Positions 6,409 to 26,200 of a DNA stretch of 28,895 nucleotides are shown in pieces. The position numbers and the translations under genes were made by a program. The notes under the pieces are model-generated. The model saw only the letters and a program-made list of their open reading frames with translations, had not been told where the DNA came from and searched no databases. This DNA is from a virus. Each line of letters begins with the position of its first letter. The first letter of the stretch is position 1. Location of the stretch: positions 1 to 28,895 of the IMG/VR virus record IMGVR_UViG_3300023180_006626; one strand, given 5' to 3'.

Positions 6409-8061
6409 TTACACATAGTTTACATCAGCAACTACGACTTTACCGTAGAACTCACTTCTAACCATCTTCTTAGCGTATCTGGTCATTACACCTTTTCTTG
6501 GTGTGAAGTTCTTAGGGTCGTATACTAATGGTGTCATGATTAACGGCACATATGGAGCATAAACCGCACCTGTTTCAAGGAAGTTACTTCCTCTGAAACC
6601 TGCTAGGATTACATTGTCCTGTGCGTAAGGGTTCTTGTAAACAGTAAATCTGTTGTTAAGAGCACCTACTTTTTGTACACCCATTGCGAATGATGATTTA
6701 GTTGAATCACCATCAGAATCTGCTGCGTATCCAGGAATAGACTCTATGATTGTTGCAGTCTCAGGACTTACAACGATGAAGTTAGCTCCACCTCTTAGAG
6801 TTTTTTGATGAATAGCGTTACTTACTGATTGTAGTTTGTTTCCAAGTGTTTGGAACCAAGTACCTTTTACATATGCATTTGAATTTGCAGATGATTCAGA
6901 AAATAGACCTGTTGCTGAGTCATACTCATATCCGACTCTTGCTGACCATCTTTCTGTCTTAGCAGATGCATTTGCATACAACATGTCTAAGATTTCTAAA
7001 TCAATTTCCATTGAAATGTACTCAGAAAGAAGAGCAGTTAATTCAGCTTCCGCATCAACACTATGGTACGCGTTCAAGTCTTGAGCAAGTTCTGGTGTCC
7101 AGACTGCTTTTAACTTACGAGTTTTAGCGATGATTGGAATGCTTTTTAATGCGATATCCAATTCTGGAATATCGATATCTGTTTCAGGGTTTGCATCAAT
7201 TTGATTTGCAGTTGCCTCAAAGTCTGTACGAGCATAATTGGTGCTCTTAACTTTGTGGTAAGATACTACTAAATCTCCAGGTGCACCTGCAGTTGATTTC
7301 AATACATAGAAATTAATTGCAGAATTCGCTGAATCGTATGATGTATGTGCTGGATAGAAAGCATCAAATCCAGAACCTGAAATTGAGAAAGCTCTAACAC
7401 CATCTGGGTCAAAATCAGTTATTGCACCAGTGTGTACAGAGATTTTCAATAGACCGTCATCTGCAACTTGTCCTGTAGATACAGAAGCAGATAGGTCTGG
7501 CTCAAAATTAACATCTGACCAGTTTACAGATGCAGTTGTGTATGCACCACTTGAAAGTGATGAAGCAATACTTACTGCAGATGAATCTGTGTCGTTAATT
7601 GAGTAGCCAAATTTACCAGCACCGTACAAACCGCCAGTAGCATCACCAGAACCTGATGTATTACCATATACATCTGAGTTGTTGGTGTGATTGTCAGTTT
7701 GAGCAGTACCATATTTGAAGTCAAGATAGAAAATCAGACCTGAAGGTAAGTTCATTGGTTGAACAGAAACAAATTCCTGTGCAGCCAACTCACCAAAGAT
7801 TCTACGAACTAAAGGAAGTGCAACACCTGACCACTCTTCAGCGTTTGCAGATGTACCTGTTCTTGAAGCTTCATCAATTAATTGACGAGCTTGGTTTTCA
7901 AGAAGAACAGCCATTCCGTTTACTTCATGTTCTTTGTTAAGACCTTCTAAAAGACCTGTTGGTTCCCATTTCTTGACTAACTTACGAGTTTGTTCCAATA
8001 GTTGTCTTTGTGGATTATATCCATCCATTAAAGACTCTATTGATTTAAATTTATCACTCAT
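6409..8061 (-). CDS. Major capsid protein (T4 gp23-like)
   Basis: 550 residues (T4 gp23 has 521). Characteristic segments are VSVQPMNLPSGLIFYLDFKYG at about residues 98-118 (T4 CGVQPMNSPTGQVFALRAVYG, shown in part), KAVWTPELAQDLNAYHSVDA with AELTALLSEYISMEID further on, and the C-terminal YAPYVPLIMTPLVYDP and GVMTRYAKK. The N-terminal 64 residues should be a delta domain. LIDE/A at residues 61-65 matches the T4 cleavage site after Glu65, so the gp21-like protease at 15302 probably trims it. The ATG at 8061 follows TTAGGAGACTAAAA, an excellent ribosome binding site, 14 bases after the scaffold stop. A TATAAT string at the end of the scaffold gene could be an extra promoter but lacks a good -35. 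Confidence 0.95.
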   Translation of the reverse strand: MSDKFKSIESLMDGYNPQRQLLEQTRKLVKKWEPTGLLEGLNKEHEVNGMAVLLENQARQLIDEASRTGTSANAEEWSGVALPLVRRIFGELAAQEFVSVQPMNLPSGLIFYLDFKYGTAQTDNHTNNSDVYGNTSGSGDATGGLYGAGKFGYSINDTDSSAVSIASSLSSGAYTTASVNWSDVNFEPDLSASVSTGQVADDGLLKISVHTGAITDFDPDGVRAFSISGSGFDAFYPAHTSYDSANSAINFYVLKSTAGAPGDLVVSYHKVKSTNYARTDFEATANQIDANPETDIDIPELDIALKSIPIIAKTRKLKAVWTPELAQDLNAYHSVDAEAELTALLSEYISMEIDLEILDMLYANASAKTERWSARVGYEYDSATGLFSESSANSNAYVKGTWFQTLGNKLQSVSNAIHQKTLRGGANFIVVSPETATIIESIPGYAADSDGDSTKSSFAMGVQKVGALNNRFTVYKNPYAQDNVILAGFRGSNFLETGAVYAPYVPLIMTPLVYDPKNFTPRKGVMTRYAKKMVRSEFYGKVVVADVNYV

Positions 8062-8075
8062 TTTTAGTCTCCTAA

Positions 8076-9254
8076 TTATAGTATGTTAGCTAATTTCTTG
8101 AATCTATTTTTAATCTCAGTACCCTCGTTTAAAACATCTTCTTTAGCTGGTTTAGTAGAAGCAACTGGTTTTGAACTTGAACCTTTTGATTCTCTAATTG
8201 GTTTTACATTTACACCTTTAAAAGATTCTGCAAGTGTAGAGTAAACCAATTTGATTTCTCTTAGGTTTTTAGTTCTATCAAAAGTTTCAACAACTTTTAA
8301 TTTTTGTTCGTTACTTAGACCAAACGCTCTAAATAGTTTGTTTGAGAATAAGAGTTTAGCATTCAATAAATTAACTTCGTTTAATTTTCCACGAAGATAT
8401 TTTACAACATCTCTGTGCTCTTTAATTTCTGCTTGAAGTGTAGCAATTTCATCTACTCCGTCCTCGTTATCATCTTCCTCTTCGGTTAATGCTTTAAGAA
8501 CTTCTTCTAAATCGATTTCTTCATCAACACTATCATCGCTGTCGGAATCTTCTCCCTCTTTAACCACTTCATGGTCATCAAGTTCTTTTCCAGCTTCTTT
8601 ATCACTACCTTGTGATTCAGGGCCTTGTCCAACTTTTGATGAATCACCAGCTTCACCTGGTTCTTTGTTATCTGAAGCACCAATGCCTGAAGATACATCG
8701 TTTTCATCAACAGTTTCGTCAACGTCTTCTTTATCGTCGTCTTCTTCTACTGTTTCTTCAACTCCGTCTTCATCAGCTTCTTCTTCTAGCTCAGCAAGAA
8801 TAGACTCAAGGTCGAGCTCTTCTTCCATTTCATCACCATCTTCTTCTTCATGATAGGTTTCATCAGCAGGTTCATCAGCCTCTTCTTCTTCACCATACAT
8901 AGCTTCATCAGAAGGTTCACCTTCTTCTTCTTCATCAGTTGGTTCTTCGTGAGAGTCTTCGTCTGCTGGCTCATCTTCGCCACCATGCATTTCGTCTTCA
9001 TGTGAATCTATTTCATCAGATGCAATGTCTTCAACCTCTTTCTCTTCTTCATCATCAAGTTCTTCTGTTTCAGGTTCTTCAATCTCTTCGACTTCATCAC
9101 CATCTTCTTCTTCGATTTCTTGTTGAATCTTTTGAGCTAACATTGATTTCAATTTAGGTGTAAATGCTTCTTCAAGTGCCATCTTTGCATTAGCTAAAGC
9201 TGTTTCACGAACTGCTTTCGCATCTGCAATGGCTTCTTTAAGTAAATCATCCAT
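8076..9254 (-). CDS. Prohead core scaffolding protein (T4 gp22-like), very acidic
   Basis: 392 residues. An N-terminal helix (LLKEAIADAKAVRETALANA, then ALEEAFTPKLKSML) is followed by about 240 residues dominated by Glu and Asp. The C-terminal domain includes LFSNKLFRAFGLSNEQKLKV, then FDRTKNLREIKLVYSTLAESF, shown in part. The end segments resemble gp22 core proteins of marine T4-like phages. T4 gp22 forms the core on which the shell assembles and is degraded by gp21. Here LKE/A, LEE/A and the C-terminal VLNE/G (residue 377) fit the same cleavage rule. It precedes the capsid gene as in T4 and has a long, structured 5' region of about 110 bases. The acidic stretch produces Ser- and Leu-rich shadows in other frames. 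Confidence 0.88.
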   Translation of the reverse strand: MDDLLKEAIADAKAVRETALANAKMALEEAFTPKLKSMLAQKIQQEIEEEDGDEVEEIEEPETEELDDEEEKEVEDIASDEIDSHEDEMHGGEDEPADEDSHEEPTDEEEEGEPSDEAMYGEEEEADEPADETYHEEEDGDEMEEELDLESILAELEEEADEDGVEETVEEDDDKEDVDETVDENDVSSGIGASDNKEPGEAGDSSKVGQGPESQGSDKEAGKELDDHEVVKEGEDSDSDDSVDEEIDLEEVLKALTEEEDDNEDGVDEIATLQAEIKEHRDVVKYLRGKLNEVNLLNAKLLFSNKLFRAFGLSNEQKLKVVETFDRTKNLREIKLVYSTLAESFKGVNVKPIRESKGSSSKPVASTKPAKEDVLNEGTEIKNRFKKLANIL

Positions 9255-9628: not shown

Positions 9629-10306
9629 CTACTTTTTAACTTCTGTTTTTGCTTGGAAATTCTTATCAACATAATTAAAGAACTTCTTTTTAGCCTCATC
9701 ATCAAGTTCTGCTGGTGATTTTATTCCAAATTTTTTCATTGCATTTGCAAAGAATTCTTGATAATCACCCTCATCAATACTATGACCTGATGGTGTTTGA
9801 TTATCCTTTACTGGTATATCTTCTAATCCAAGTCTTACCAATTCATCATGGTCTTCATCACCCTCTATTTCAAAATATCTACCAAGAACATGGCCCATAT
9901 CTTCATATAAACCACTCATTCTTTGTTGTAGTACTTGTGATTCTTGTGCAATCTTTCCAAATGATTTTGATAAGTTTGTTAATTCTTTCATGTTACGATT
10001 TACCGTAACTTTATCAAACCAATCTTCGGTTTCACTTAGAGTATAATTTTTTCCCATTTCTGCAATTGATGATAATCTTTCTGCAATCTTTTTAAGGTCT
10101 ATTTCTTTCTGTAATACTTTACCGAAACTTGCAAATTCCTTAACTGCCGCTCTTACTTCTTTTGCAGATATCTTTTCTTCTTTCTTACCATAAATATCCT
10201 CAACCATACTTGTTAAAGATGTATTGGTATTTCCGATTGGTGGTGTAGATACTACTCCACCCAATACTGAAAAGTTTTCTTTTACTAAATCTTTTAATTT
10301 TGCCAT
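9629..10306 (-). CDS. Putative internal head protein with capsid-targeting-like N-terminus
   Basis: 225 residues, function unknown. The start MAKLKDLVKE/N fits the M-x-[KR]-L-K-x-[LI]-[ILV]-x-E pattern of five sites in this region and ends in a possible gp21-type cut. The middle is charged and helical (about residues 40-135). An acidic segment follows (FEIEGDEDHDELVRLGLED), then a C-terminal module SPAELDDEAKKKFFNYVDKN that I recall from other marine phage proteins. The ATG has a strong AAGGAG and a TATTTATT motif about 20 bases before it, so it probably starts a transcript that includes bS21. A packaged internal protein is the favoured guess. Confidence 0.6.
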   Translation of the reverse strand: MAKLKDLVKENFSVLGGVVSTPPIGNTNTSLTSMVEDIYGKKEEKISAKEVRAAVKEFASFGKVLQKEIDLKKIAERLSSIAEMGKNYTLSETEDWFDKVTVNRNMKELTNLSKSFGKIAQESQVLQQRMSGLYEDMGHVLGRYFEIEGDEDHDELVRLGLEDIPVKDNQTPSGHSIDEGDYQEFFANAMKKFGIKSPAELDDEAKKKFFNYVDKNFQAKTEVKK

Positions 10307-10336: not shown

Positions 10337-10933
10337 TTATCTTCGTTTTTTACCGCCAAGATAACTACGAAATCTTTTATCTACTTTTGTCCATAGTACA
10401 CCCAACATCTCTCTAACACCCATACTGGTATCACCTGTTGGACCTGTTTTAATACCACGAATTAAATCCATAGCATCATACTTACCATTTTTCACACCAT
10501 TCATCATTACTTTGATGGTTTGTTGTGATGCCTTGTTGAAAAACTTACCCATTTCTTTTATATCTTTTTCAACAAATTGTTTGGCCTCTGGTGATGAATA
10601 TTTTGACATTGGAAAACTATTCACCCCTTTACCCTTTAATGAACCTGGTACATACATCTCTGCTTCATCTAAACCAGATTTACCATCAAGATAAGTGTGT
10701 ACACTTTGTAAATTTTCTAATGCGATAGTAAGAGCAGATTGTAACCATGCAGGTAACTCTACTTCACCATCTTCATCTTTTTTCATATTATCAATAATCT
10801 CATAATTCATACGAGCTAATTTTATACTTCTCTTTAATTGAGATTTTGCCATCTGACCTTCATGGTCGCCTTTCTTCTCATTAAGACGAAAATCTTTCCA
10901 TTGAGACCACATTTTATGTGTCATATCACTCAT
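10337..10933 (-). CDS. Conserved-type marine phage protein of unknown function
   Basis: 198 residues, basic at the C-terminus (GGKKRR). Residues about 26-85 (EGQMAKSQLKRSIKLARMNY, then ELPAWLQSALTIALENLQSV and HTYLDG) resemble a helical module I recall from many marine T4-like phages, often at the ends of larger modular proteins. Its biochemical role is not known to me. The C-terminal half (from about 110) is helical with a glycine-rich GIKTGPTGDTSMG loop. The ATG overlaps the previous stop as TAATG, with AGGAGAGG just upstream. It lacks the capsid-targeting-like start of its neighbours. Confidence 0.6.
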   Translation of the reverse strand: MSDMTHKMWSQWKDFRLNEKKGDHEGQMAKSQLKRSIKLARMNYEIIDNMKKDEDGEVELPAWLQSALTIALENLQSVHTYLDGKSGLDEAEMYVPGSLKGKGVNSFPMSKYSSPEAKQFVEKDIKEMGKFFNKASQQTIKVMMNGVKNGKYDAMDLIRGIKTGPTGDTSMGVREMLGVLWTKVDKRFRSYLGGKKRR

Positions 10934-11352
10934 TAACCTCTCCTATATAACCAACCACCATGAACATCAAAACGAGCATATGATTTAGGTTCAAAGATAT
11001 TACCTCTTACACCTTTTGCTCTTCCATTGTATCCTGCAGGTTTATAAATATCGCCTGTTTCTTTATCTACAAAGAAATGAACACTTAATCCATTCTTTGG
11101 CTCTGATGCACGAACATTAACTATTCTATCAAATTTTGGTCCTTTTTTCAAAAGTGTTGGATACTCCCAATTTTTTTGTTCCCATGTAGATGGAAATGAT
11201 TTTTTAAATTGTTTTTCTGCAGATTTCTTCATAAAATCTAACATCTTTTTCATTGCTCTATCATATCCAGCCTTTGCCTCATTCATTGCATGAATTTCTT
11301 TAGCAATATCTTTTGCAATATCCTCACCAATAATATCTTTTAACTTAATCAT
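10933..11352 (-). CDS. Putative internal head protein with KETGDIYKPAG module
   Basis: 139 residues. The N-terminus MIKLKDIIGE/D fits the capsid-targeting-like pattern with a possible cut after Glu10. A further site, MNE/A, lies at about residues 23-25. The C-terminal part contains HFFVDKETGDIYKPAGYNGR, AKGVRGNIF and HGGWLYRRG. I recognise this as a module found in many marine phages, without a known activity. It overlaps both neighbours by one base, so it is translated with them. Confidence 0.6.
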   Translation of the reverse strand: MIKLKDIIGEDIAKDIAKEIHAMNEAKAGYDRAMKKMLDFMKKSAEKQFKKSFPSTWEQKNWEYPTLLKKGPKFDRIVNVRASEPKNGLSVHFFVDKETGDIYKPAGYNGRAKGVRGNIFEPKSYARFDVHGGWLYRRG

Positions 11353-13550
11353 TAGTAATACCCTCTGAATTTGTTTTTAAGAATTAGATTAACTATTTCA
11401 GCAACTTCCTTACCATATCTTGGTGCATTTCTATATGATTTAGGATGTTCAGGGTTTCTTTTTTCATAATCAATATCATCTTTAACTGCATTATTATAAT
11501 AAGTAACCTTATCATATAATCTATCCATTGCATCAGTTATATTTCTCATTAATTCCATTGCTTGCATTTCAGGTGCTCGAGTACTACTTAAACCTTTTAG
11601 TAATTTTTTGGCAGCTGCATTTGGTTTACCACCAATCAAACCTGTAATTAATCCATCTGTATAATCTTTTGCTCTTTTAACTTTTGCTTTAACTTTTTCT
11701 GGGTCATCATACATTGCCTTAATAGCATCTTCGTATTTTTCTTTATTTTGTCTTTTGAAAGATTCATCATCTCTCCATTTCCAAGAACCAACTTGTATAT
11801 CTGACCTTAAGTTTCTAACTTCTTTACCACCCATGTATGGCATGCTTTCCTCAAGTGATATTTTGTAAAACTCAACTCCGTTAATTTTCTTTACTGATGC
11901 TGCGTTTTGATATCCAAATTGATTTAAACCAAAGGTACGATTTTCAGATGTAGAGAATCCATATCCTTTTGTATCTGCAACTCGTATATCTTTTTTTCTA
12001 TTCTTATCGGATTCTCTCCAAGATTTTGTCCACCAAACTGCCTTACCATCTTTGAAAACACTCAAGACAACACCTTTATCAACTTCTAAATCACTTCTCC
12101 AATAAGATTTTCCTTTAGCTGGTAAACTTACTTTTTTACCAGTTACTGCAATCACAACACCTTTACCAGATAGTTTTGCAGTTTTTTCAATCATATCATC
12201 AGTTACTTTATCTGCTCGTACACCTAATCTAGCCAACCATCCATAGAAATCATTATCTAATTTGAAATCTTGTCTATTGGTGAATTTTCTTAATAATTTA
12301 CTTTGTAATGCCTCTACTAAATAAGATACTTTTGATTCTCTCATTACATCTTTTAATTTTATTATACCTTCCTTTGTTTCTTTTGTTATATCGGTTTCAA
12401 GGTCTAATGCTGCTTGTTTAATTTTATCTTGAATTTGTTTATCAAGTTTTTCATCTTTTGGATTTCCGTCGTCATCTAAATTATCTCTAAATTCTTTTCC
12501 TAAATCTTTAAATACTTTTGCATCTGGATTACCTAATTTTTCTAAATTGTCTGCTGCCATATCAACATAGTAAGGTTCAATACCACCAGCCATTTGTGGA
12601 TTTTTTATATTTCTGATAGCGTCGTTGTAATCATCTTGTGCTCTTTGTTTTTGTTTAGGGTCTAACTTTGGTTTACCTAATGTTGAATATTTTTTATGAA
12701 AATCAATAAGTATTTTTGTCTTTTTTTCTAATTCTTCTCGTGGAACTTCTGATAAGGCTTCATCATCTAAATCCATTACATTTACCTCCGCAGAATAGAG
12801 TTTATCTATATCTTCTTGTGGAATTTGTCCTTCTAATTCACTAGCTACATTATATATCTGTTGATTAAATTCATCTACATTATCATCTAAATCGTTGATT
12901 ACTTTAGTTACATTAGTTATTCCCTTATCATCATACCTATTCCAATCCATACCGTCGATTGCTTCTTGAGCATCATCATCAAGTTCTACTGGTTCATCTG
13001 ATTTAGGTTTTTCTTTAACATCAATACCAATATTATTACCATCCCCATCAAAAGCATCTTGATAATAAAAATCTTCTATATCATCTGAATCCATTTCATT
13101 ACCATCAGCATCAAACATTTTTCCGTCTTTTATTTTCATCCCACCATCTAAATCAAATTCACCTTTCATATTTTTAACATCATCTGCGAATTGTTGTGGG
13201 CCTGATGATTTAAGTTTTCCGTCTTTAACTTTAGTTCCTACTTCTGGTTCATCATGTATTGGGTCAAAATCACTTAAATCAGATGGTTCCATACCATCAT
13301 CATCTGATGGTAGTTCTCTATCGAAATCACTACCACTCAATCCTTTAGATTTAGGGTCTTCTTTTCCACCATCTTTACCAATCTTTACAAGTTTACCACC
13401 ATCATTTTTATGTGTGATACCATCTTGGCCTTCTTTACCATAACCTTTACCTTTCCAAACTAAACCAAGTTTTTTGGCTTTTTCTTTTTCGGTATCTTTT
13501 AACTTTGGAGCATCTGCTTCCATTAATAATGTTTTTAATTTAATCATCAT
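11352..13550 (-). CDS. Two-part putative internal head polyprotein with an internal capsid-targeting-like sequence
   Basis: 732 residues. The start MMIKLKTLLME/AD matches the capsid-targeting-like pattern. Residues about 20-60 form a GYGKEGQDGITHKNDGGKL-type module, then 80-270 are very acidic. At residues 396-413 the same targeting pattern recurs internally (IIKLKDVMRESKVSYLVE/A), so residues 1-395 and 414-732 look like two packaged proteins joined in one frame. The second half is basic, with an SYWRSDLEVDKGVVLSVFKD segment and a helical C-terminus; no enzyme motif was recognised. It overlaps the upstream gene by four bases (ATGA). The acidic half might act as core filler like scaffold. Confidence 0.65.
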   Translation of the reverse strand: MMIKLKTLLMEADAPKLKDTEKEKAKKLGLVWKGKGYGKEGQDGITHKNDGGKLVKIGKDGGKEDPKSKGLSGSDFDRELPSDDDGMEPSDLSDFDPIHDEPEVGTKVKDGKLKSSGPQQFADDVKNMKGEFDLDGGMKIKDGKMFDADGNEMDSDDIEDFYYQDAFDGDGNNIGIDVKEKPKSDEPVELDDDAQEAIDGMDWNRYDDKGITNVTKVINDLDDNVDEFNQQIYNVASELEGQIPQEDIDKLYSAEVNVMDLDDEALSEVPREELEKKTKILIDFHKKYSTLGKPKLDPKQKQRAQDDYNDAIRNIKNPQMAGGIEPYYVDMAADNLEKLGNPDAKVFKDLGKEFRDNLDDDGNPKDEKLDKQIQDKIKQAALDLETDITKETKEGIIKLKDVMRESKVSYLVEALQSKLLRKFTNRQDFKLDNDFYGWLARLGVRADKVTDDMIEKTAKLSGKGVVIAVTGKKVSLPAKGKSYWRSDLEVDKGVVLSVFKDGKAVWWTKSWRESDKNRKKDIRVADTKGYGFSTSENRTFGLNQFGYQNAASVKKINGVEFYKISLEESMPYMGGKEVRNLRSDIQVGSWKWRDDESFKRQNKEKYEDAIKAMYDDPEKVKAKVKRAKDYTDGLITGLIGGKPNAAAKKLLKGLSSTRAPEMQAMELMRNITDAMDRLYDKVTYYNNAVKDDIDYEKRNPEHPKSYRNAPRYGKEVAEIVNLILKNKFRGYY

Positions 13551-15094
13551 AGTCTCACTTGTTTACCGAACCTACTCCACAATTTAGCCATAAATACATA
13601 TAATTGTTTTTCGTTCATTTTGTTAATTTTTTCTTTTTGTTTATCATTTGCTTTTTCATACACTTGTTTAAATAAATTAGCAGTCATAGCATCTACGGTT
13701 CTACCACCGAGTTTTCCAAATGAATGGTCATCTGCCATCTTCATAATTTTTTCTACACCCTTACCTTCATTTACTGATTCATTCATAAACTCATTGTCTA
13801 AAAATGAATGAATATCACGAGTGGTTTTAGGTAGTTTTTTACCTGTTACTTGGTTAAATATTGCGATTGAGTATGGTTGGTTGTGTCGTAATTTAGATTT
13901 TAATGCTCTGATATCTTTTTTCTTTATTGCCTTTACCAACTCATCATAAGTTCGTTTTGCATTCGCTTTATTTTGTGCAGTAACAGCTTTGATTATATCT
14001 TGTTTTTTATATTTTTGTGCACCTTTATCACCTTTTTTAAGAGCTATCTCCCAATTTCCCAACATTCTTTTTATTGAACTTTTTAGGTGGAAATAATCTT
14101 TTTTTGAAAATAACTTATACAATTTTTCAAAATCTCTATTTTCGTTTATTGATTCTTTTACTGATTCTTTCTTTGAATAATCTGGGTCAAGTTTTCTTAA
14201 CTTGATTAAAATATCTCTTAACATCTCTCTATCTGTAGAATCAAATCCAATTTCAAAATTTGGTTTCTTCTTTAATAATACTGAGTAGGCCATTCCGATT
14301 TCTTTTTGTCCTAATGTTCTTTTCTTTTTATCAGGGTAAACTCCTTTAGGCCCATAGAAATCATTCATATATTTAATAAATCCTCTGTAATCCATTTCAT
14401 TCAATATACTCTCACCTAAATCTTTGGTTTGTTTTTTCATCCCTTTTGGATTCACTAAACTTACACCTAATGTTTCAGTAGATAATAAATCTTTAGTTTT
14501 CAACATAAACTCTATCCAATGTTTCTTATATAAATTCATCAATTCCATACCTCGTTTTCTATCTTTACGAGCAACATCTTTGATTTTACTTTTAATAAGT
14601 TTATCTATTTCTGACATTTTCATTTCATTTAAACCATATGCTTCATTTACTGATTCTGCCTTTACACAATTTGGATATTTTTTACCAAACAATTCTTTTG
14701 TTTTTTGAGTAGGATGTATTTTATATCCTTTCCAACATTTCTCACATAAACACCCACCCATCTTTTCTGCCAACTCTTTTAATTTTTTATCAACTTTACC
14801 TGTACCACCTGGTGATTTTAATTTATAATTAGGGTCGACAGCAGAAGTAGTGTAACCACATGCTTCCATTTCGGTGTTGGTTAACTCTTTAATTGTTTTA
14901 ACTATCCACTCTTTGTTCACTTTTTCTGGTTTCCCTTTATGTTTTGTTGAAGCATACTTTTCAGTAGACTTCGTATCCATTGATTTTGCTGCCTTCTTTA
15001 CTGCGGGTGAGGCATCACTTGGTTTCATTTCTCCTTTATTAAGAGCATGAACCATACCCATAAATCTTTGTTGAGCTTTAGATTTGGATGGCAT
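13547..15094 (-). CDS. Putative multi-module head polyprotein with DUF3008-like N-terminus
   Basis: 515 residues. The N-terminus (MPSKSKAQQRFMGMVHALNK, then ASTKHKG) looks like the DUF3008 family of T4-like phages. A Cys-rich module follows (C79, C115, C117, C120, C143) with GYKIHPTQKTKELFGKKYPN. After it come four lysine-rich helical segments separated by short linkers: ESVNE/A (after 151), GLNE/M (157), SILNE/M (233), ESINE/N (318) and ESVNE/G (443). The last segment includes GGRTVDAMTANLFKQVYEKA, another recurring marine phage module. The [LIV]-N-E linkers look like prohead-protease sites, so the product may be cut into five or so small internal proteins. No catalytic motif was recognised. 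The ATG overlaps the previous stop by one base. Confidence 0.65.
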   Translation of the reverse strand: MPSKSKAQQRFMGMVHALNKGEMKPSDASPAVKKAAKSMDTKSTEKYASTKHKGKPEKVNKEWIVKTIKELTNTEMEACGYTTSAVDPNYKLKSPGGTGKVDKKLKELAEKMGGCLCEKCWKGYKIHPTQKTKELFGKKYPNCVKAESVNEAYGLNEMKMSEIDKLIKSKIKDVARKDRKRGMELMNLYKKHWIEFMLKTKDLLSTETLGVSLVNPKGMKKQTKDLGESILNEMDYRGFIKYMNDFYGPKGVYPDKKKRTLGQKEIGMAYSVLLKKKPNFEIGFDSTDREMLRDILIKLRKLDPDYSKKESVKESINENRDFEKLYKLFSKKDYFHLKSSIKRMLGNWEIALKKGDKGAQKYKKQDIIKAVTAQNKANAKRTYDELVKAIKKKDIRALKSKLRHNQPYSIAIFNQVTGKKLPKTTRDIHSFLDNEFMNESVNEGKGVEKIMKMADDHSFGKLGGRTVDAMTANLFKQVYEKANDKQKEKINKMNEKQLYVFMAKLWSRFGKQVRL

Positions 15095-15301: not shown

Positions 15302-15922
15302 TTATTCTCCTCTTATAATCTTGTTGATTAAATCTTCTGCTTTACAATACTGACCACAAGTTCTTCCTTGTGTTGGTGTTCTTTCAACACCCTCTTGTAG
15401 TGGATACATGAAGGCACCATGTGTAGATGGATTACTTACAAAATCAAAAGCTATTAATTCAAAATCATTTCCAACTTTTGTTGTTGGTGTACCATCTGCT
15501 TCAGTAACAGTCTCTACTGAACCCATACCACGAGAACTGATACCTAATTTGATACCATTCTTAAATAATTCTCTTAAAATGTTTCCACTTGGTGTGGTTA
15601 GGATTTCAACTGTTCCTAATAAGTTGTCACCTTCCCAATGCATTTCAGTAATATTATGTGATACATTTTGTAAGTTCACTACTGAAGAATCTGGATGGTC
15701 AAGTTCACCTAATGCTCTCTTTTGAGAAATAAAGTTTTCTGTATAGTTTTTTGCTTCTCTCTGAAGAATGTTTGTTGGATATACTCTTCCATTTTGATTT
15801 TTTGCATTTGCTCTTTGTAATACACCTTTTACAATCAACTTTCCGTTGTTTTCTTTTAGTGATTCAGTTATCTGTTCCGCAGATAACTCAAAAGGTATAT
15901 AATCTACTAATAAGTTTCTCAT
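15302..15922 (-). CDS. Prohead maturation serine protease (T4 gp21-like, peptidase S80)
   Basis: 206 residues, near the length of T4 gp21. The early NGRVYPTNIL segment and the catalytic motifs are typical: His76 in GELDHP, Ser129/Ser130 in LGISSRGMGS, and Asp160 in FDFVSNPS. These enzymes work inside the prohead and cut the scaffold, the capsid delta domain and internal proteins after Glu in [LI]-x-E. The capsid (LIDE/A) and scaffold (VLNE/G) genes here carry such sites, as do the linkers of several accessory proteins. The C-terminal tail (RTPTQGRTCGQYCKAEDLIN) is lost or self-cleaved in comparable enzymes. It overlaps the preceding gene by one base. T4 places gp21 between gp20/67/68 and gp22; here six further head-region genes and bS21 separate it from the scaffold. 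Confidence 0.92.
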   Translation of the reverse strand: MRNLLVDYIPFELSAEQITESLKENNGKLIVKGVLQRANAKNQNGRVYPTNILQREAKNYTENFISQKRALGELDHPDSSVVNLQNVSHNITEMHWEGDNLLGTVEILTTPSGNILRELFKNGIKLGISSRGMGSVETVTEADGTPTTKVGNDFELIAFDFVSNPSTHGAFMYPLQEGVERTPTQGRTCGQYCKAEDLINKIIRGE

Positions 15923-16281
15923 TATTTCATCCTATTCACTAAACCTACAGCTTCTCTCATGAATTTAGTTACATTATCTTTGTAGGCCTTGTTAATCTGT
16001 TTTGCTAAATCTTTATTTTCACTATCTTCTTTGAAAACTTTTTCTAACTTTATTAATCTTTTTCTCAACACACCTTCTTCTTTTATAAACATCTGTAATT
16101 GTTTTTTTGCCTTTGCCTTTTCTTCACGACCTTCACTTATGTTGTCGTTTCCTTTCCAATCACTAGCTTGATTCTCTTGATGTTTTTCCATTACTGATTG
16201 AAGTGTTGGTAATGGTTGACCAAATTCTCTATCTAATAAACTAATACTTTCTGTTAGGTACTTATCGTTTGTTTTACTCAT
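15922..16281 (-). CDS. Small helical protein before the prohead protease, unknown function
   Basis: 119 residues, charged and helical with likely coiled coil from about 50 to 110. The N-terminus contains YLTESISLLDREFGQPLPTL. The C-terminal region has FMREAVGLVNRMK. Position between portal and protease corresponds to T4 gp67/gp68, small head-core proteins, but I see no sequence match strong enough to name it. It overlaps both neighbours by one base. Confidence 0.6.
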   Translation of the reverse strand: MSKTNDKYLTESISLLDREFGQPLPTLQSVMEKHQENQASDWKGNDNISEGREEKAKAKKQLQMFIKEEGVLRKRLIKLEKVFKEDSENKDLAKQINKAYKDNVTKFMREAVGLVNRMK

Positions 16282-16559
16282 TATATTTTATCCATTAATC
16301 GTTTAATTTGTTTTAGTGTTTTTGAAGTGAATTGTGCACTTTGAAACACTTTATAATCTTCACCTATTTTAACTAACTCATCGATTTGGTCTCTTAAATC
16401 ATATTTCATTTTTCTCCAAACCTTACTATCGATTTTGTTAGCTGGTATAACTTTAATGTTTTCATTAATTCTTACTTCAATCACTTGTTCTTTAGTGGAA
16501 CAACATCCCCCACCACATTCACAAGTATCTTCTTTTATTAAATTTTTTAACCTAATCAT
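16281..16559 (-). CDS. Small Cys-rich protein with capsid-targeting-like N-terminus
   Basis: 92 residues. MIRLKNLIKE/D at the start fits the shared targeting-like pattern with a possible cut after Glu10. A cluster CECGGGCC at residues 13-20 could bind metal. A second candidate site, INE/N, ends at residue 33, so the Cys peptide (11-33) might be released separately. The remaining 59 residues are helical and basic. The start overlaps the upstream stop (ATGA). A small packaged internal protein is inferred; no family recognised. Confidence 0.6.
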   Translation of the reverse strand: MIRLKNLIKEDTCECGGGCCSTKEQVIEVRINENIKVIPANKIDSKVWRKMKYDLRDQIDELVKIGEDYKVFQSAQFTSKTLKQIKRLMDKI

Positions 16560-17644
16560 TTTAAATTCCCTACTCTACTTGCTAATTTAACTAATCTCTC
16601 AGATATACTACTAAGAGCCTTGTGTGTGTTTTTCCAATAACTTCTTGAATCAACATTTAATTCATTTTTCAATCTTAAACTCATTTTGATTGTTTTATCT
16701 AATTCATTTAATGAGTTACGAACTTCACGAATTGATTTACCAATTTTTTGTTTTGGTGTTAAAGATTCGTCATTTCTCCAATCGTGATACTTACCCTCAT
16801 TTATACTTTCATAAAAATAATCATCCATTGGTTCTTTAACTTGAAAACTAATATAAGACCATACATTACCCTTTAGTTTTTTCAAAACTTCTTCAAAGTT
16901 AAATGCCATTTCTCTTGCTTTGTTCTTTTTAGCAAACTTCAACATCATTTCAGTTTCTTTTTCTAATTTTTTCCAATTGTTTGTGTATCGTTTAAGTAAT
17001 GCAGCAGCTTGTTTTTTTACTTTAGGGTCAACTGCCTCATCTACGGTTATTGATTCGTTTCTTATATGACCCTTTAAAATTTGACGAAGTGTAGTTATTT
17101 CTTTTGTAGCCTTTAAGATAGTTTCATAATACTTATTAAATTTTCTATCTTTAAGTGTTTTATCACCTATTTTAGCAATATTCCAATAATCTTTTTGTAG
17201 TTTTTCTAAACTGTTTTGAAGTTTTCGTAATGCATCAACTTCTTTTTTAGTAACTTCGTTTACATTTTCAATCTTTTTATCTACTTGTTTGCCAAGTGCT
17301 GGTTGTACACGAGATACACTTATAACTCCTTTTAAACCTTGTTTTAATTTTTTGGCAACCATTGTTTTTGCCATACCTTTTGAACCTGCATCCACAAGAA
17401 CTTTACCTTGACCTAATTTACCCATATCAACAGTTACAGCAAATTTTACTTCACTTACTTGTTTTAAACCAGATTGATTTGCAATATCATCTCGTTTCTT
17501 TTTATCTTTTTTTCTACCACCATCGAATGCCATTGGTGTCATGTATCCAGGTGTTGCTGCAGAAGTAGAGACTTCTTCAATCTCTTTCTTGATTAAGTTT
17601 CTTAAAGCTTCAATAAATTTTGCTTTATTTATCTTTGTGGACAT
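16556..17644 (-). CDS. Putative head polyprotein with TPGYMTPMAF module, unknown function
   Basis: 362 residues, basic and helical. The N-terminal helix (INKAKFIEALRNLIKKEIEE) runs into STSAATPGYMTPMAFDGG, a motif I recall from marine T4-like phages, then a DKKKRDDIANQSG segment. Linkers ENVNE/V (after 130), ITVDE/A (203) and ESINE/G (283) divide the rest into three helical parts. The last (LTPKQKIGKSIREVRNSLNE) is again a recurring module. The linker sites match the predicted protease rule. It overlaps the end of the upstream gene by 20 bases. Expected to be a head-internal or core protein, without known chemistry. Confidence 0.6.
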   Translation of the reverse strand: MSTKINKAKFIEALRNLIKKEIEEVSTSAATPGYMTPMAFDGGRKKDKKKRDDIANQSGLKQVSEVKFAVTVDMGKLGQGKVLVDAGSKGMAKTMVAKKLKQGLKGVISVSRVQPALGKQVDKKIENVNEVTKKEVDALRKLQNSLEKLQKDYWNIAKIGDKTLKDRKFNKYYETILKATKEITTLRQILKGHIRNESITVDEAVDPKVKKQAAALLKRYTNNWKKLEKETEMMLKFAKKNKAREMAFNFEEVLKKLKGNVWSYISFQVKEPMDDYFYESINEGKYHDWRNDESLTPKQKIGKSIREVRNSLNELDKTIKMSLRLKNELNVDSRSYWKNTHKALSSISERLVKLASRVGNLK

Positions 17645-18550: not shown

Positions 18551-18570
18551 TAAGAAATCGCTATTTCTTA
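18551..18570 (-). terminator. Weak hairpin at the end of the portal gene
   Basis: TAAGAAAT (18551-18558) pairs with ATTTCTTA (18563-18570) around a four-base loop, overlapping the portal stop codon. The stem is AT-rich and the T-run after it is short and interrupted, so termination is probably partial. Confidence 0.35.
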
Positions 18571-20387
18571 CCCTTAAAATCTTCATATTCTTTACTTATT
18601 TCTTCACTCTCAGTAGTTTCTTTTAAGATTTCTTTAGCTTTTGAACCCATTGATTTCTTTAAAGCATCATAATGTGCTAATGCCAAAGGAACACCAGTTC
18701 TACCTAATGGGTCTCTACCTCGAGCACTACCTTGTTTCCCATATTTTGGATTTTCTTTTGGTCTTCCTGCACCATCCCATCCATCTTCAGGTACTTCTAC
18801 TTCTTTTTTAAAGATTGAACCTGATTTAGATTCTTGGTCAAATTCACCACCATTTGCTGATGATTGCATTTCACTTGGTGTTCCAACTGATTCACCTGTA
18901 TCTGCTGGGTCATTACCCTCTACAGATATTTGTTCAAATCTAAACTTAGTTTTTTGGTCATGAACAATTTGTGAATCCATTTCTTTAATTTGGTCATCAG
19001 AGAAATTAAATAAGTTTTTATAAATCCATTCACTACTCATCATTTGATTATCTTTCATATCACGAGCAAGATTTATTTTATTATTCCACAATTCAATCTT
19101 TTCTTGTTCATAAATTGTAGATGGATTTGTTAATTCTAATTCAAAGTTTGTTAATTCTGCATCTTGATATCCTTGTGAATACAAGTGAACTACTGCAATC
19201 TTTGTTAACTCACTTACAATAATTCTTTGTATTCTCTCAATAGTACGAGCAAATCTAACATCCTCAGCTGCCAATGTTGCTTTACTACCAAGTGATTCCT
19301 CATATCCTAAGAATGCCTTTGGAATATGTAATGCAGCTAATAAACGATTCTTTAAGTATTCAATATCTTCTGTAGTTTCATAAGTCATACCTGGTAAGGT
19401 ATCAATACCTGTACCACTATCACCACCACGAACTGGCAAGAAGAAATCTTCCGTTAAGTTCTGAATATTAAACTTCAAGTTATAATCACCAGTCTCGTTA
19501 TCGATGTATGGTGTTTTCTTCATCTTGTTGATAATTCTTTGCATGTAGTTATCAACTTCATTTGGTGGTATGTTTCCAATATCCACTTTGAAGATTCTTT
19601 TTTCTGGTGCTCTCATGATTCTATGAATCAACATAGCATCTTCCATCAATGTAACTTGTTTCCAAACCTTACGAGCACTTTCTAACATTGATTTACCATA
19701 AGGTAAAAGATTACTATCACTTGCCAATCTAAAGTGTGCAATTTGGAAATTCTCAAACTCAATCTTTTTACCTGTTGTGGAACGAGCAAAATAAGGATGA
19801 GTTGTGTTTTGTGCCTCCATTCTAAATTTTACCATATAAGGATTTTCTGGGTCTTCTCCCTCTACACGAAGTAACTCATAAGAAGAAACAGGTACAACAT
19901 TAGTAATACCATACTTATCTTCGATATCCAAATATAAAAAGAAATCACCATATTTACATAGATTTCTTGTCCATGGCCATAAGTTAAATTCGATATTTAA
20001 AATATCATAAAATAAATTATGTAGGATTTCTTTAATGTTGTTATTATCAGTTATGATATTCAGTACCTGTCCATATGGATTTTTCATAGTGGATTCATCG
20101 GCATAAATATCAAGAGCAGATGAGATAATACTATCACTATCCATACTTTCGTAATCTTTAAACAACCCTAATCTCGCTGCCTGTAATTGTGCGAAGGTGG
20201 AATAACCAGTATTTACCAAATCTAATCCACTATGTAGTTTAGAATATCTATCCACTAAGTGTGATTTAGTAGTTGCTTGAATTTGTGCAGTATCTGCGAC
20301 TTTTAATTTCTTACCACCAACATTTCTTACAATAACATTGGTACTGAATAATCGCCTCAGTCTACTATATAATGATTTATCTGCCAT
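18561..20387 (-). CDS. Portal protein (T4 gp20-like)
   Basis: 608 residues (T4 gp20 has 524). Recognisable segments are DSIISSALDIYADESTMKN at about 84-102, LCKYGDFFLYLDIE, LLPYGKSMLESARKVWKQ, MLIHRIMRAPEKRIFKVDIG at about 254-273, and LKNRLLAALHIPKAFLGYEE followed by SKATLAAEDVRFART. These belong to the T4-type portal core. Portals form a 12-subunit ring at one head vertex that starts assembly and carries the packaging motor. The last ~100 residues (from about 500) are an added polar tail rich in Gly, Ser and charge. GAGGT precedes the ATG, 14 bases after the terminase stop. Confidence 0.93.
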   Translation of the reverse strand: MADKSLYSRLRRLFSTNVIVRNVGGKKLKVADTAQIQATTKSHLVDRYSKLHSGLDLVNTGYSTFAQLQAARLGLFKDYESMDSDSIISSALDIYADESTMKNPYGQVLNIITDNNNIKEILHNLFYDILNIEFNLWPWTRNLCKYGDFFLYLDIEDKYGITNVVPVSSYELLRVEGEDPENPYMVKFRMEAQNTTHPYFARSTTGKKIEFENFQIAHFRLASDSNLLPYGKSMLESARKVWKQVTLMEDAMLIHRIMRAPEKRIFKVDIGNIPPNEVDNYMQRIINKMKKTPYIDNETGDYNLKFNIQNLTEDFFLPVRGGDSGTGIDTLPGMTYETTEDIEYLKNRLLAALHIPKAFLGYEESLGSKATLAAEDVRFARTIERIQRIIVSELTKIAVVHLYSQGYQDAELTNFELELTNPSTIYEQEKIELWNNKINLARDMKDNQMMSSEWIYKNLFNFSDDQIKEMDSQIVHDQKTKFRFEQISVEGNDPADTGESVGTPSEMQSSANGGEFDQESKSGSIFKKEVEVPEDGWDGAGRPKENPKYGKQGSARGRDPLGRTGVPLALAHYDALKKSMGSKAKEILKETTESEEISKEYEDFKGKK

Positions 20388-20401: not shown

Positions 20402-21976
20402 TTATAAGAGCCATTCTAAAGACTCTTTTTTCTTATCTTTACCAACATCCCATTGCCAAGAATCATTTTCATTCTCGTCTGCAGTGTATAAACCATCTAC
20501 ATCTTGGAGTCGGTTTAATGTTTTCTTCGTTAACTCAATTCCCTCAGTTCGTAATCTTAACGCAGTATCACGAACCCACAATCCGATAGCAAACGACATA
20601 ACCAAATCATCATTGTATCCTGCCATTGCTTCGGCTCTATTATTATTATAGATGAAAGTAAATAATTCATCGATTAAACGATTACTACGAACCACTACAC
20701 TTTCCTCTCTAAAAAATTCTTCTAACTTAGCTATAATTAGTGGACGACTCTTCATTGTCGTTGAAAATCCTGCCACCATATTCTTTTCTTGAGCTCTGTA
20801 TTTATTTGTCATCTGATGTTGTACATCGATGTATTGTAAATCTTTACTTGTATAAAATAGATTAGGATAATCCCTATCTATCACTTGTTGGATGGTTGCC
20901 CAACCAATATTATTGTTTTCTATAATTAGTAAAGCATCGTTATATTCTGTTGAAATTGTTACTAATAAATTACCAAAATCTTTAGTACTCATTCTACCTT
21001 TATACTCTGCAACTTGTTCTACATTCTCCACATCAATAACATGGAATGCAGAATAATCTGCTGAATCTCCTCTACCAACATCAGCACATACAATATAATT
21101 CCTTGTGTAGTTTGGTGGTTGCCAAACCCATAAGTTTCCATCTATTCCTCTTTTTTCTATTGGGTCTTGTACATGGGCCTTTCTACAATTTTCTAATATC
21201 GTACCATCAATAACAGAAGTACCAGAAGTAATGAAATCACAATCACATTCTTGTGCAGCACCTTGTAAACCTAATAATTCATCTTGTTCATCTCTCCACT
21301 CTTGGTTTCTATCTGGATGAACACTCCAATGTAATTTAATATCATTGAACATTCCTCTACCTTCTTCGGCCTGTACCCAAGTTTGATGAAACCAATTACC
21401 AACTCCATTTGGTGTTGATAATGCAATACAACTACCACCCGTTGTAAGTGTTTGTTGAGATGCAGTCCATATATCATCAATCTTATCAATGAACGCTGCC
21501 TCATCCAATATCAATAATGATAGAGCTTCAGAACGAGCTGCTTCGGTTGATGATGCAACTGCTTTGATTTGTGAACCATTAACATATCGTAGTGATAATT
21601 TATTATCCTCAACACATCGTTGTTTCAACCAACTTGGTAAATTTGCGTGCATAACACGAACTTTCGTAACCAAGTTTTTTGCAGTATCTTGTTTAGTTGC
21701 AATTACCAAAATGTTTTTATCTTGGAAGAATGTCATCTGCCATAAAGAGTAACCAGCAGTTAGTGTACTTATTCCTAATTGTCTTGCCTTTAAAATAATA
21801 TTAAATCGATTCTCTTTAAATTCATTAACCGTTTCTTCTTGAAAAGGATACAAATGAAAAGGTATCTTACCCTTAATCGGGTGTTGAATCATACAATACT
21901 TTTTTAAAAAGTAGACAGGGTCTTGAGCACACTTAATATACTCTTGTTTGATTACTTCTTTTATCTGTTCTGCCAT
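20402..21976 (-). CDS. Terminase large subunit (T4 gp17-like)
   Basis: 524 residues (T4 gp17 has 610). The ATPase half has Walker A KARQLGIST at 63-71, Walker B LLILDEA at 154-160 with catalytic Glu159, and coupling motif STPNG at 187-191. The RNase H-like nuclease half has VCADVGRGDSADYSAFHVID starting near 296 (Asp299 and further acidic residues), IIENNNIGW and YNDDLVMSFAIGLW near the end. It cuts concatemers and pumps DNA through the portal; the T4 relative suggests headful packaging. The gene is intact with no intein or intron break. It shares a base with the previous stop (TAATG). Confidence 0.95.
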   Translation of the reverse strand: MAEQIKEVIKQEYIKCAQDPVYFLKKYCMIQHPIKGKIPFHLYPFQEETVNEFKENRFNIILKARQLGISTLTAGYSLWQMTFFQDKNILVIATKQDTAKNLVTKVRVMHANLPSWLKQRCVEDNKLSLRYVNGSQIKAVASSTEAARSEALSLLILDEAAFIDKIDDIWTASQQTLTTGGSCIALSTPNGVGNWFHQTWVQAEEGRGMFNDIKLHWSVHPDRNQEWRDEQDELLGLQGAAQECDCDFITSGTSVIDGTILENCRKAHVQDPIEKRGIDGNLWVWQPPNYTRNYIVCADVGRGDSADYSAFHVIDVENVEQVAEYKGRMSTKDFGNLLVTISTEYNDALLIIENNNIGWATIQQVIDRDYPNLFYTSKDLQYIDVQHQMTNKYRAQEKNMVAGFSTTMKSRPLIIAKLEEFFREESVVVRSNRLIDELFTFIYNNNRAEAMAGYNDDLVMSFAIGLWVRDTALRLRTEGIELTKKTLNRLQDVDGLYTADENENDSWQWDVGKDKKKESLEWLL

Positions 21977-23252: not shown

Positions 23253-26200
23253 CTATCCAAATTTTAAACTACCAAGTATTTGATTGATTGGAGCAAATGC
23301 ACCAGTAAACTTATATACTTTACCTTTGTACTTAAATACAATTCCCTCACTTGGAACAATTGATTTTAATCCACCAATTGCATTTAGTTTTTCTATTTGT
23401 GTTTTTAGTTTTTTTAATTTCTCTATATTATCTTTTTTACTTAAATCTCGATATGCCTTCTCCATTTCATCACGAACTTTCTGAACTGACTTATCAGGAT
23501 TTACTGCCATATAACCACTTATGTTTTTCAATATCTGTGCTCCCACATCAAAGAACAATACTTCAAATGGTTTTATATTATCTTTAAAAATTTTAGTGTG
23601 GTCAAACTTATCTGTATTCACTATCCACTCTACAAACTTTGGATTATCTTTGTAATCACTTCTAATTTCTTGTATCTTATATGATTTATCAAAGTATGCC
23701 CATCTACGAACTAACTTTGCAAATTGAGCAGGTTTTAACTTTACACCAAATTGTTTTGATGCATTAAAAATATACTCTCTCCAATATGCCTCATGATATT
23801 CACCTAATGTATTTTTATCATTCAATCCATATGTTGATTGTAATCTTTTTAATCTACCCAAGTATGTATTTTTTAATTTATCATAATCTTGGTGTTTTGG
23901 TACTTTTAAAAAGTTTGGTTTACCAATCTTAAATGTTTTTTGTATACTTTGATTCACTTGTTTAATCATACCTGCCAACATACGAGCAGAATCTTTTGGT
24001 TGTCCTATTGGTCTACCACTTTCATCATACTCTAATGTACCATGAAATACTATTTCTGCCACATCATAATCTATTACATTTGCTGTTGCTGGATACATAA
24101 CCTCTAAATTCATCCATCGTTTACCATTACCGAATACTTTTTCTTTTTGTTTATCCGATAAAGAACCGATTGCTTTTTCTAAATCTCTCATCGCACCTAC
24201 GAATGCTTTTTTAATATCACCTCTACCACTAAAAATAGATGCAACTCCTTTAGTATCTGGTGCAGTTTTACCAAAGTTTCTTAAGTGTCCTTTGTTTCTG
24301 GCAGCTTTTAACTTACCATCAATCCAACTAACCATTAGATTTTGTCCATCGAGTTTCTCTGTAACTCCATCTTCTCTATCTAACTTTCCACCGATACCAT
24401 TAATAATTATGGTCTTTAAATCTGAAAATGTAAGATTATTGTCATCGAAAGGATGACTCATGTGTCCATAGGCTCCACCCATTAATAATAACTCCTTTGT
24501 CTCTTTAATAAATGATTCTTGCATCTGCTTGATTCTATCACCCATCTCATCTTCTGCAGGTGTTAAATCAAGATTAATTGCTCTTTGTGTATTTTGGTCT
24601 TGTGTTTGTACACCAGGTAATGCAGGTGCCTCAACAGGTACACCAGTAACATTTTTAGTATCTGGTGTTAATCCCATCCACTTTAATATTTCAAAATCTA
24701 ATGTACCAACAACTTTTTCTATCCAATCTTTATATGCAATTACTGGGTCATCTTCACCAAACCTCTCTCCGTAAGGACCAGCACCTTTTCTACCATAGGC
24801 AACTGTCGGTACTTTGTTCATTCTTGTGGTGAAATCTAAACCTGGGTCATTTGCATTTGGACTTAAAATATACTGAACGATTTCCCAACCCATACCAGGT
24901 TCTCTATCAGTAATGTACATTTTATTAATCCATTGAGTAGTATGTGTTTTATAATCATCAAACCCATCATAGTATGTAGGTGGGCCATCATCAATAGGAA
25001 CTGCTGCTCTATCTGATGCCTCTTTAAGTAATTTACCCAAATCTATTTCTTGTATAAACTTATCAATCGTTTCAAATAACTTTTTAAATTTATTATTCAT
25101 CATTTGGAACACACCCTTATCATAATATCCAAATGCTTGTTTAAATAATTTTTCTCTATCTTGTTCGTAATCTGGTGAACCAAGTAATTGTCTCATTACG
25201 GTTCCACTCACTTCTTTACCACCAACCTTAACTGATTGATGTGGTGCAGTCATAAAGTATCCATGTTCTTCATATCCCTTTAGATTATTTTTATTCTTTT
25301 TATAATCTTGGAAATATGATAACCCACCAGATTTCTTTTTACCACCTGCTAATCTACCTGCATCTTTTTCACCAAAGATATAAATTACTGCGGTAGTTGC
25401 AGGGTCATATTTCTTAAGAACATTCTCTGCCTTAAGTGGTACTTTTTCCTTAACAATTCGATTTTTAGGAACACCCATTTTTACCATGTGTCGAACTTTT
25501 TCTGCAAAGTTCATAGGATGTCTTGGTGGTTTTTTGATATCTGAAGTAGTGATGTATGCATCATCCACTTGAGATTTTAACCATTTATAGGTTTTTAAAT
25601 GGTGAGGCCCAAACGGTTGATACCGTCCACCATAAATACCTACAACCTTTTTAATCTTTTGTTCGGAAATGGTTGCATTATCCCCATTTTCCATACTTAA
25701 ATATAAGGCTTTTTTCATATAAGAGTCAAGGTTTTTTTGTAAATTTTCTACTTTTTTATACCCACTTTTTTTATTAGTTTTGTTTTTCTTAACACCCTTT
25801 CTACTCGGTGATGGTATTACTCCTGCAGGTGCACCAAACTCTTCATTAATAATACCACCTCGTTCATTATACCATTTTCTAAATTGTGCTGGTGTTCCTA
25901 CGGTAACTTTACCTTTTGCAATTTTTTCTACTTCTTTTCTTATACTATCATATTGACCCACTCTTTTTAACATAAATACATCTTGAATATGAATTTGATT
26001 CACAACTATTTCATTCCACCCGTGTTCTGATGGTTTATCTTTTTGACTTAATATGTGTCGTTTGATTTGTGGTGCATACTTTCTCATTATTTTATAACAC
26101 ATATCAATATATTTTTTAATCCATTCTCTTTTGTAAGGCCCTAATGCCTTTTTTAGGTTTTCGTCGTGTGCTTGGTGGTCATATTGAGTATCACCATAAC

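Follow-up and report, generated by a model that had tools for sequence, protein, structure and literature searches.

Comparison with related contigs gives good support to the view that a 732-aa open reading frame (ORF) of an uncultured phage is an in-frame fusion, with the leader of its second gene kept at the joint. Taken as a whole, we consider it probable that a leader-bearing acidic cassette was fused in front of a basic head-protein gene, that the leader is a T4-type targeting signal, that an S77 protease would free two cargoes and that leader and linker codons act as joints for exchange. The window analysed here is the whole 28,895-nt stretch of IMG/VR virus record IMGVR_UViG_3300023180_006626. 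Its minus strand carries a T4-type head cluster, in which several ORFs with the same leader stand between the protease and the capsid genes (Table 1).

Table 1. Features of the window discussed in the text, with the basis of each assignment.
Feature	Position	Strand	Basis
Major capsid protein	6409..8061	minus	51.7-57.5% identity to nearest phage capsid proteins
Acidic scaffold-like ORF just before the capsid gene	8076..9254	minus	gp22 role suggested by position and composition
225-aa ORF, leader MAKLKDLVKE	9629..10306	minus	leader pattern
139-aa ORF, leader MIKLKDIIGE, DUF7717	10933..11352	minus	domain match and leader pattern
732-aa fused ORF, putative internal head protein	11352..13550	minus	uninterrupted frame, 732 codons
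Basic C-terminal putative cargo module, residues 414-732, net +21	11355..12311	minus	free-standing gene in 31/36 contigs
Second candidate cleavage site LVE/A, residues 411-413, conserved	12312..12320	minus	[LIVM]xE in 21/23 leader-bearing rows
Crossover interval, L016-like left, L013-like right	12324..12341	minus	base-by-base comparison
Internal leader IIKLKDVMRE, residues 396-405	12336..12365	minus	first codon ATA (ATG in L013)
Purine-rich 18 nt directly preceding the internal motif	12366..12383	minus	14/18 nt common to L013
Acidic variable region, residues 89-395, net -40	12366..13286	minus	sequence comparison and charge count
First module, residues 12-88, with KEKAKKLGLVWKGKGYGK box	13287..13517	minus	also within a different protein of L013, L014, L016
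N-terminal leader MMIKLKTLLME, residues 1-11	13518..13550	minus	leader type common at N-termini nearby
DUF3008 protein, 515 aa, module chain with S(V/I)NE linkers	13547..15094	minus	slot just upstream of the 732-aa ORF
Prohead core serine protease, gp21 type, Peptidase_S77	15302..15922	minus	PF03420 E 3e-27; PHROG 207 E 4.5e-53
119-aa ORF, free in the window	15922..16281	minus	joined after the shared first module in L013, L014, L016
92-aa ORF, leader MIRLKNLIKE	16281..16559	minus	leader pattern
362-aa ORF, module gain relative to L016, ending YESINEG	16556..17644	minus	sequence comparison
Portal	18561..20387	minus	named by reading and gene order
Large terminase	20402..21976	minus	named by reading and gene order
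1663-aa ORF with CCA/poly(A) nucleotidyltransferase, cytidylyltransferase-like and RNA-ligase-like parts	23253..28244	minus	cluster end with the terminase; domains bounded by xxE motifs

An earlier reading made from the sequence alone had placed the leader at the start of the 732-aa protein, with a repeat at residues 396-413 (positions 12312-12365) and a sharp change of charge there. Every coordinate proved correct: the internal motif IIKLKDVMRESKVSYLVE/A maps exactly to 12365-12312, and the net charge runs from 0 over residues 12-88 to -40 over 89-395 and +21 over 414-732.

By itself, the internal motif would be only modest evidence for a second leader. Under a matrix built from 48 distinct leader N-termini, with the 732-aa ORF left out, it scores 11.2 bits, a value attained by 93 of 4001 shuffles of the protein; a decoy at residue 16 reaches 10.6 bits. 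The high content of K, L, D and E in the protein accounts for these shuffled matches. Set in the context of its homologues, the motif appears far beyond chance. A single leader pattern, tuned by eye on known leaders, was found at the N-terminus of 84 among 567 distinct proteins from the window together with 36 related loci, where it stands for 66 distinct 14-residue N-termini. At internal methionines of these proteins it was found once in 3035, at the homologous fusion junction of locus L013.

Two further leader-like sequences were seen. The C-terminus of the portal (residue ~583) and of its homologues (L013, L016, L026, L027, L029, L036 and others) holds a conserved K(A/S)KxI(I/L)xET, which is also a decoy for the leader matrix and may be a cleavage or core-binding tail. 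In a 484-kb phage record (L052, LR756508.1, 468-10847) about 13 of the 30 listed ORFs share, by eye, a different start, MKxxxxKLRxIIREEI, which suggests another head-leader family.

A profile search of IMG/VR with the C-half returned 36 contigs. The C-half is a free-standing gene in 31 of these, fused in four (L013, L014, L016 and L026) and cut off at the contig end in one (L038). The free genes start in 20 cases with MIKL/MIKI-type leaders that align to the internal motif (one of them MVIKL) and in three with a start of the MNLKELS kind, and eight distant homologues start with MNKTINN-like sequences without a leader; leader targeting is therefore not universal in this family. The first codon of the internal motif is ATG in L013 and ATA in the window and in L016, and an AAGGAG stands ~12 nt upstream of the L013 internal ATG, a distance too great for a convincing start site. 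The alignment of the C-half used below has 28 rows, namely the window and 27 of the 36 loci; L014, L020, L025, L032, L038, L041, L045, L046 and L047 were left out as near-copies or fragments.

The sequence-only reading had taken the protein for a fusion of two genes, each to be sought as a separate gene in related phages. This stands for the second gene, which is free-standing from the motif onward in 20 of the 36 contigs and has another start in 11 more, but not for the first: among the relatives we found no free-standing gene for the N-half, which was present in fused loci or, by its first-module box alone, inside other ORFs. Homologues all of full length with a structured 380-430 region, which that reading had named as contrary to it, were not what we saw, since the C-half is often free and the leader has a pLDDT <50 in the model of the C-module.

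By these comparisons the N-half is a mosaic cassette and not one intact gene that has been lost. Its first module is kept at 57-78% in close relatives and is reused in other proteins. The acidic middle is swapped wholesale for unrelated sequence in L013 and shortened in L016, and residues 185-300 match a 476/481-aa protein of the relatives. Weak matches (20-25%) between the N-half and scaffold-like ORFs were discarded as matches of acidic composition. A module with the KGYGK box was also observed in L054-L084; the ORFs that hold it are ~510-744 aa long and differ in their C-termini, and in many of them a DGMPDPKNRxH-type domain at the N-terminus precedes the module.

The joint itself records an exchange. 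Upstream of the motif there are 20 differences in 330 nt between the window and L016, and 17 of them fall in the initial 21 nt, as the alignment passes out of the shared block; the first 42 nt of the motif show 0 differences, and farther on identity drops to ~65%. To L013 the window shows no relatedness farther upstream than the 18 nt that precede the motif, and from the motif on there are 3 differences in 42 nt and 8 in 288 nt (~95% identity). Because the window agrees with L016 at the three motif differences from L013, the crossover is placed at 12324-12341. The window is thus a mosaic with a crossover inside the leader codons. The 18-nt purine-rich stretch is possibly a relic of a ribosome-binding region.

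Furthermore, the tree of the C-module indicates that the fusion arose more than once. The fused or free state needs three changes on this tree, at least two of them forced by well-supported branches, and the C-module of L016 branches outside the group of the window, L013 and free genes (support 93/91, just below the starred level). A cassette difference was also found between two near-identical loci, L026 and L027, which agree at 986 of 1000 nt across the C-module and at 446 of 450 nt on the left-hand side. The gene is free in L027 (360 aa) and fused in L026 (523 aa), which carries an extra in-frame cassette of ~490 nt that consists of the leader MKKLSQILESINEV and ~163 residues; a similar start, MKKLSQLLESINEV, opens a 533-aa gene of its own in L012, on the same contig as L028.

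Joining of this kind extends to the neighbouring genes. A homologue of the free 119-aa ORF forms the C-terminal part of the 476/481-aa protein of L013, L014 and L016, behind a KGYGK-box module and with the junction NKYLVE/S, and this fusion is also present in a further contig, L057. In the 476/481-aa proteins of L013 and L014, FG(E/Q)PLPTL is repeated on both sides. As a separate observation, FG(E/Q)PLPTL followed by (E)DTxKAHKLK makes a second leader-like sequence (L013:2830-4260, L016:2189-3634), which flanks the acidic module in L013 and lies near the start of many small ORFs.

The DUF3008 proteins consist of modules strung in a chain. We counted 32 S(V/I)NE linkers in 17 DUF3008 proteins (shuffle mean 0.2) and 41 in 498 others (mean 3.5). 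The DUF3008 proteins of L026 and L027 differ by one 79-residue module, which lies between GESVNE and GESINE, and for those of the window and L016 the difference is a module flanked by AESVN and ESILNE. Homology blocks were compared in 34 proteins, selected because they had a DUF3008 start or two or more S(V/I)xE motifs; of the 160 block ends, 47 fall no more than 3 residues from S(V/I)xE (null mean 8.7, maximum 18 in 1000), a comparison that is partly circular, as shared linkers extend alignments. In L028, the final module of a 1043-aa protein corresponds to a PHROG family over its full 98 residues. Sequence comparison thus indicates that modules come and go at the S(V/I)NE linkers.

The codons of these linkers are biased, with GTA for 52 of 56 valines compared with 407 of 1011 outside and TCA for 55 of 75 serines compared with 478 of 1078, a contrast that is overstated, as many of the instances share descent; the bias fits exchange or copying at the DNA level. 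The linker 12-mer TCAGTAAATGAA occurs exactly at window positions 13766-13777 and 14642-14653 (minus strand) and on the coding strand in 30 of 84 loci (some on the same contig), among them the cultured Flavobacterium phage immuto (L050). An 841-aa multi-module ORF of the same phage (L050:3105-5630) has ESVNE and ESLNE linkers and holds two copies of a module that is a free gene of 91-95 aa in L015 and L021.

Next we consider how such a precursor would be processed. The leader is most likely a capsid-targeting sequence of the T4 type, judged by analogy, and the S77 protease encoded nearby is the likely processing enzyme. After the leader, [LIVM]xE is present in 21 of the 23 leader-bearing rows of the alignment and its E in 22, and the neighbouring residues vary. 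The free C-module of L027 (6935-8014) has lost the second-site glutamate (VIA/A), and the near-identical fused L026 retains it. Residues 12-395 hold three [LIVM]xE sites against 6.0 expected and residues 414-732 three against 3.7, and the 18-residue joint holds two; because the halves are below the expected count and the joint has two sites, both halves look spared and the joint exposed. For comparison, the acidic scaffold-like ORF has 25 sites against 17.3 expected (p 0.018).

We infer that the prohead protease cuts at E405/E413, and that the protein is packaged in the head with the N-half surviving the cut. Under this model, an acidic cassette made of a leader, a KGYGK-box module and a variable acidic region would have been inserted before a once free basic head-protein gene, whose own leader was left behind at the joint. 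The first leader would target the precursor, with assembly within the prohead. On head maturation the S77 protease would cut after residue 11 (E11) and a second time within the internal leader, following E405, E413 or both, so as to release two cargo proteins from one precursor inside the head. Leader and linker codons would double as recombination joints for the exchange of modules.

What the C-terminal cargo does is less easily named. The 732-aa protein has no match above cut-off in Pfam or NCBIfam and none in PHROG; the C-module finds no relative among solved structures (best E 0.28), and its structure model is of low confidence (pLDDT 65.7, pTM 0.46; pLDDT <50 for the leader at residues 1-15). 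Foldseek with these low-confidence models gave no match at E <=0.001. With no domain, structure or Foldseek match and models of low confidence, we name no enzyme for it. In the phage collection, tblastn with the whole protein, the C-half or the first module gave no match. Judged by capsid protein, the cultured phages with the closest heads are Microcystis phage Mel-JY01 (54.5%) and Flavobacterium phage immuto (51.7%).

Other explanations of the 732-aa protein differ mainly in the fate of the N-half and of the joint. The acidic N-half could be a long propeptide as in phage SPN3US, which serves the basic C-half as a scaffold or for targeting and is later cut to pieces, leaving one mature protein. 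Long propeptides cut many times are described in the available text of the SPN3US reports (PMC5694885, PMC10052503), and the N-half is indeed strongly acidic with a middle that is not conserved. We nevertheless hold this to be unlikely, as the N-half is poor in [LIVM]xE (3 against 6.0 expected) where the scaffold-like ORF is rich, and as its first module is conserved in close relatives and reused in other proteins. Alternatively the joint may stay uncut, leaving a single two-domain protein in which the internal leader is a harmless relic. The change from ATG to ATA in the window and L016, by which the start signal was lost, agrees with such a relic, but the leader pattern has been retained (MIKLKDVLRE in L013, IIKLKDVMRE in the window), the second site is present in 21 of 23 rows with the fused ones included, and the pLDDT of the leader is <50; we give this alternative little credence.

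A different possibility is that the leader and S(V/I)NE repeats are primarily DNA elements, either recombination sites or promoters, with any protein meaning secondary. The synonymous codon bias of the linkers speaks for it, although that test is overstated by common descent. Against it, the site that follows the leader keeps xxE even though its codons and its middle residue vary. The motif TATAAATA, which we take to be the T4 late-promoter core, is not above chance in the window, with 8 matches, a number reached by 12 of 100 shuffles, and linkers as T4 late promoters were discarded as a candidate. We regard this primacy of DNA elements as improbable. That the fusion is an artefact of assembly or sequencing seems to us very improbable indeed: every locus is a metagenomic contig, but the fused frame is open in the window and four other contigs with differing middles and conserved joint codons, and the 476/481-aa fusion recurs in four loci.

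Returning to the proposed precursor cut at its joints, the 1663-aa ORF suggests that enzymes too may be built in this way. Its nucleotidyltransferase part matches PF01743 (E 2.8e-31), with NCBIfam matches below their curated cut-offs, and is flanked by INE motifs at 150 and 511. The cytidylyltransferase-like part (E 0.013) is below cut-off, as is the C-terminal part, a weak RNA-ligase match (E 0.024) that contains EKLDGQN, which we take to be the ligase motif. A 639-aa protein of Mel-JY01 aligns to residues 865-1071 and 1256-1662 without the stretch between, and this absent stretch is bounded in the 1663-aa ORF by LLKE (1073) and IKE (1246). The ORF is possibly a packaged RNA-repair precursor. 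As a tentative extension, which we think more doubtful than not, injected proteins would be cassette polyproteins whose leader and linker codons are both protease cut sites and short recombination homologies, and cargo would be gained by placing a module between two such sites. The largest example would then be the 1663-aa ORF, as a ready-made RNA-repair set carried into the host.

Taken together, the joining and swapping of pieces at leader signals looks like a way to build and trade head-carried proteins, and evolution appears to reuse a T4-like tagging trick repeatedly and to link several cargoes in one chain. Were the joints cut, phage head cargo would have a polyprotein route with protease processing, and in uncultured phages the tags would give a simple listing of candidate injected proteins, many of them without an assigned function. 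How head cargo is exchanged while assembly of the head goes on undisturbed also becomes open to test. In the literature searched, mostly outside subscription journals and in partial text, we came upon neither internal capsid-targeting leaders nor S(V/I)NE linkers.

In phage T4 a ten-residue tag can direct foreign proteins into the head, and the letters of the leader found here presumably differ from those of T4. Like the genes of IPI, IPII, IPIII and Alt, the window has an S77 protease cluster with scaffold-like and T4-type capsid genes, and, as among the T4 internal proteins, a short N-terminal leader ending in xxE is common to otherwise unrelated proteins. The available text on T4 describes a ten-residue leader that sends internal proteins into the core and is removed by gp21, and one report (PMC9026906) presents this capsid-targeting sequence as a possible evolutionary mechanism that brings various proteins into T4-like capsids.

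Phages SPN3US and phiKZ share with our protein a long N-terminal region on a head protein, which in their case, according to the accessible parts of the reports, is removed at xxE by a T4-related prohead protease and discarded after multiple cuts (PMC5694885, PMC10052503). A region rich in protease sites, typical of these giant-phage propeptides, is not what we found, since by site counts, a proxy for real cleavage, the N-half is site-poor, and it carries a reused module. Polyvalent proteins, as far as the available text goes (Iyer et al. 2017, PMC5512222), likewise combine several domains in one polypeptide, are thought to enter the host with the DNA and have been likened to polyproteins. They often hold a peptidase domain of their own, whereas here a separate S77 protease is encoded nearby and none was found in the 732-, 515- and 1663-aa proteins with Pfam, PHROG and NCBIfam. 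Two or more recognised effector domains, also typical of them, are lacking in the 732-aa protein, which has none above cut-off.

We would therefore place the 732-aa protein, from its sequence, under the capsid-targeting system of T4, as a putative cassette-built precursor of several head cargoes. T4 has one gene per cargo and its leader at the N-terminus only, whereas here a leader lies at residues 396-405 within one ORF between two modules, with fusion in the window and in 4 of 36 contigs, and S(V/I)NE linkers join many modules into chains. The new element relative to T4 would be the leader inside the ORF.
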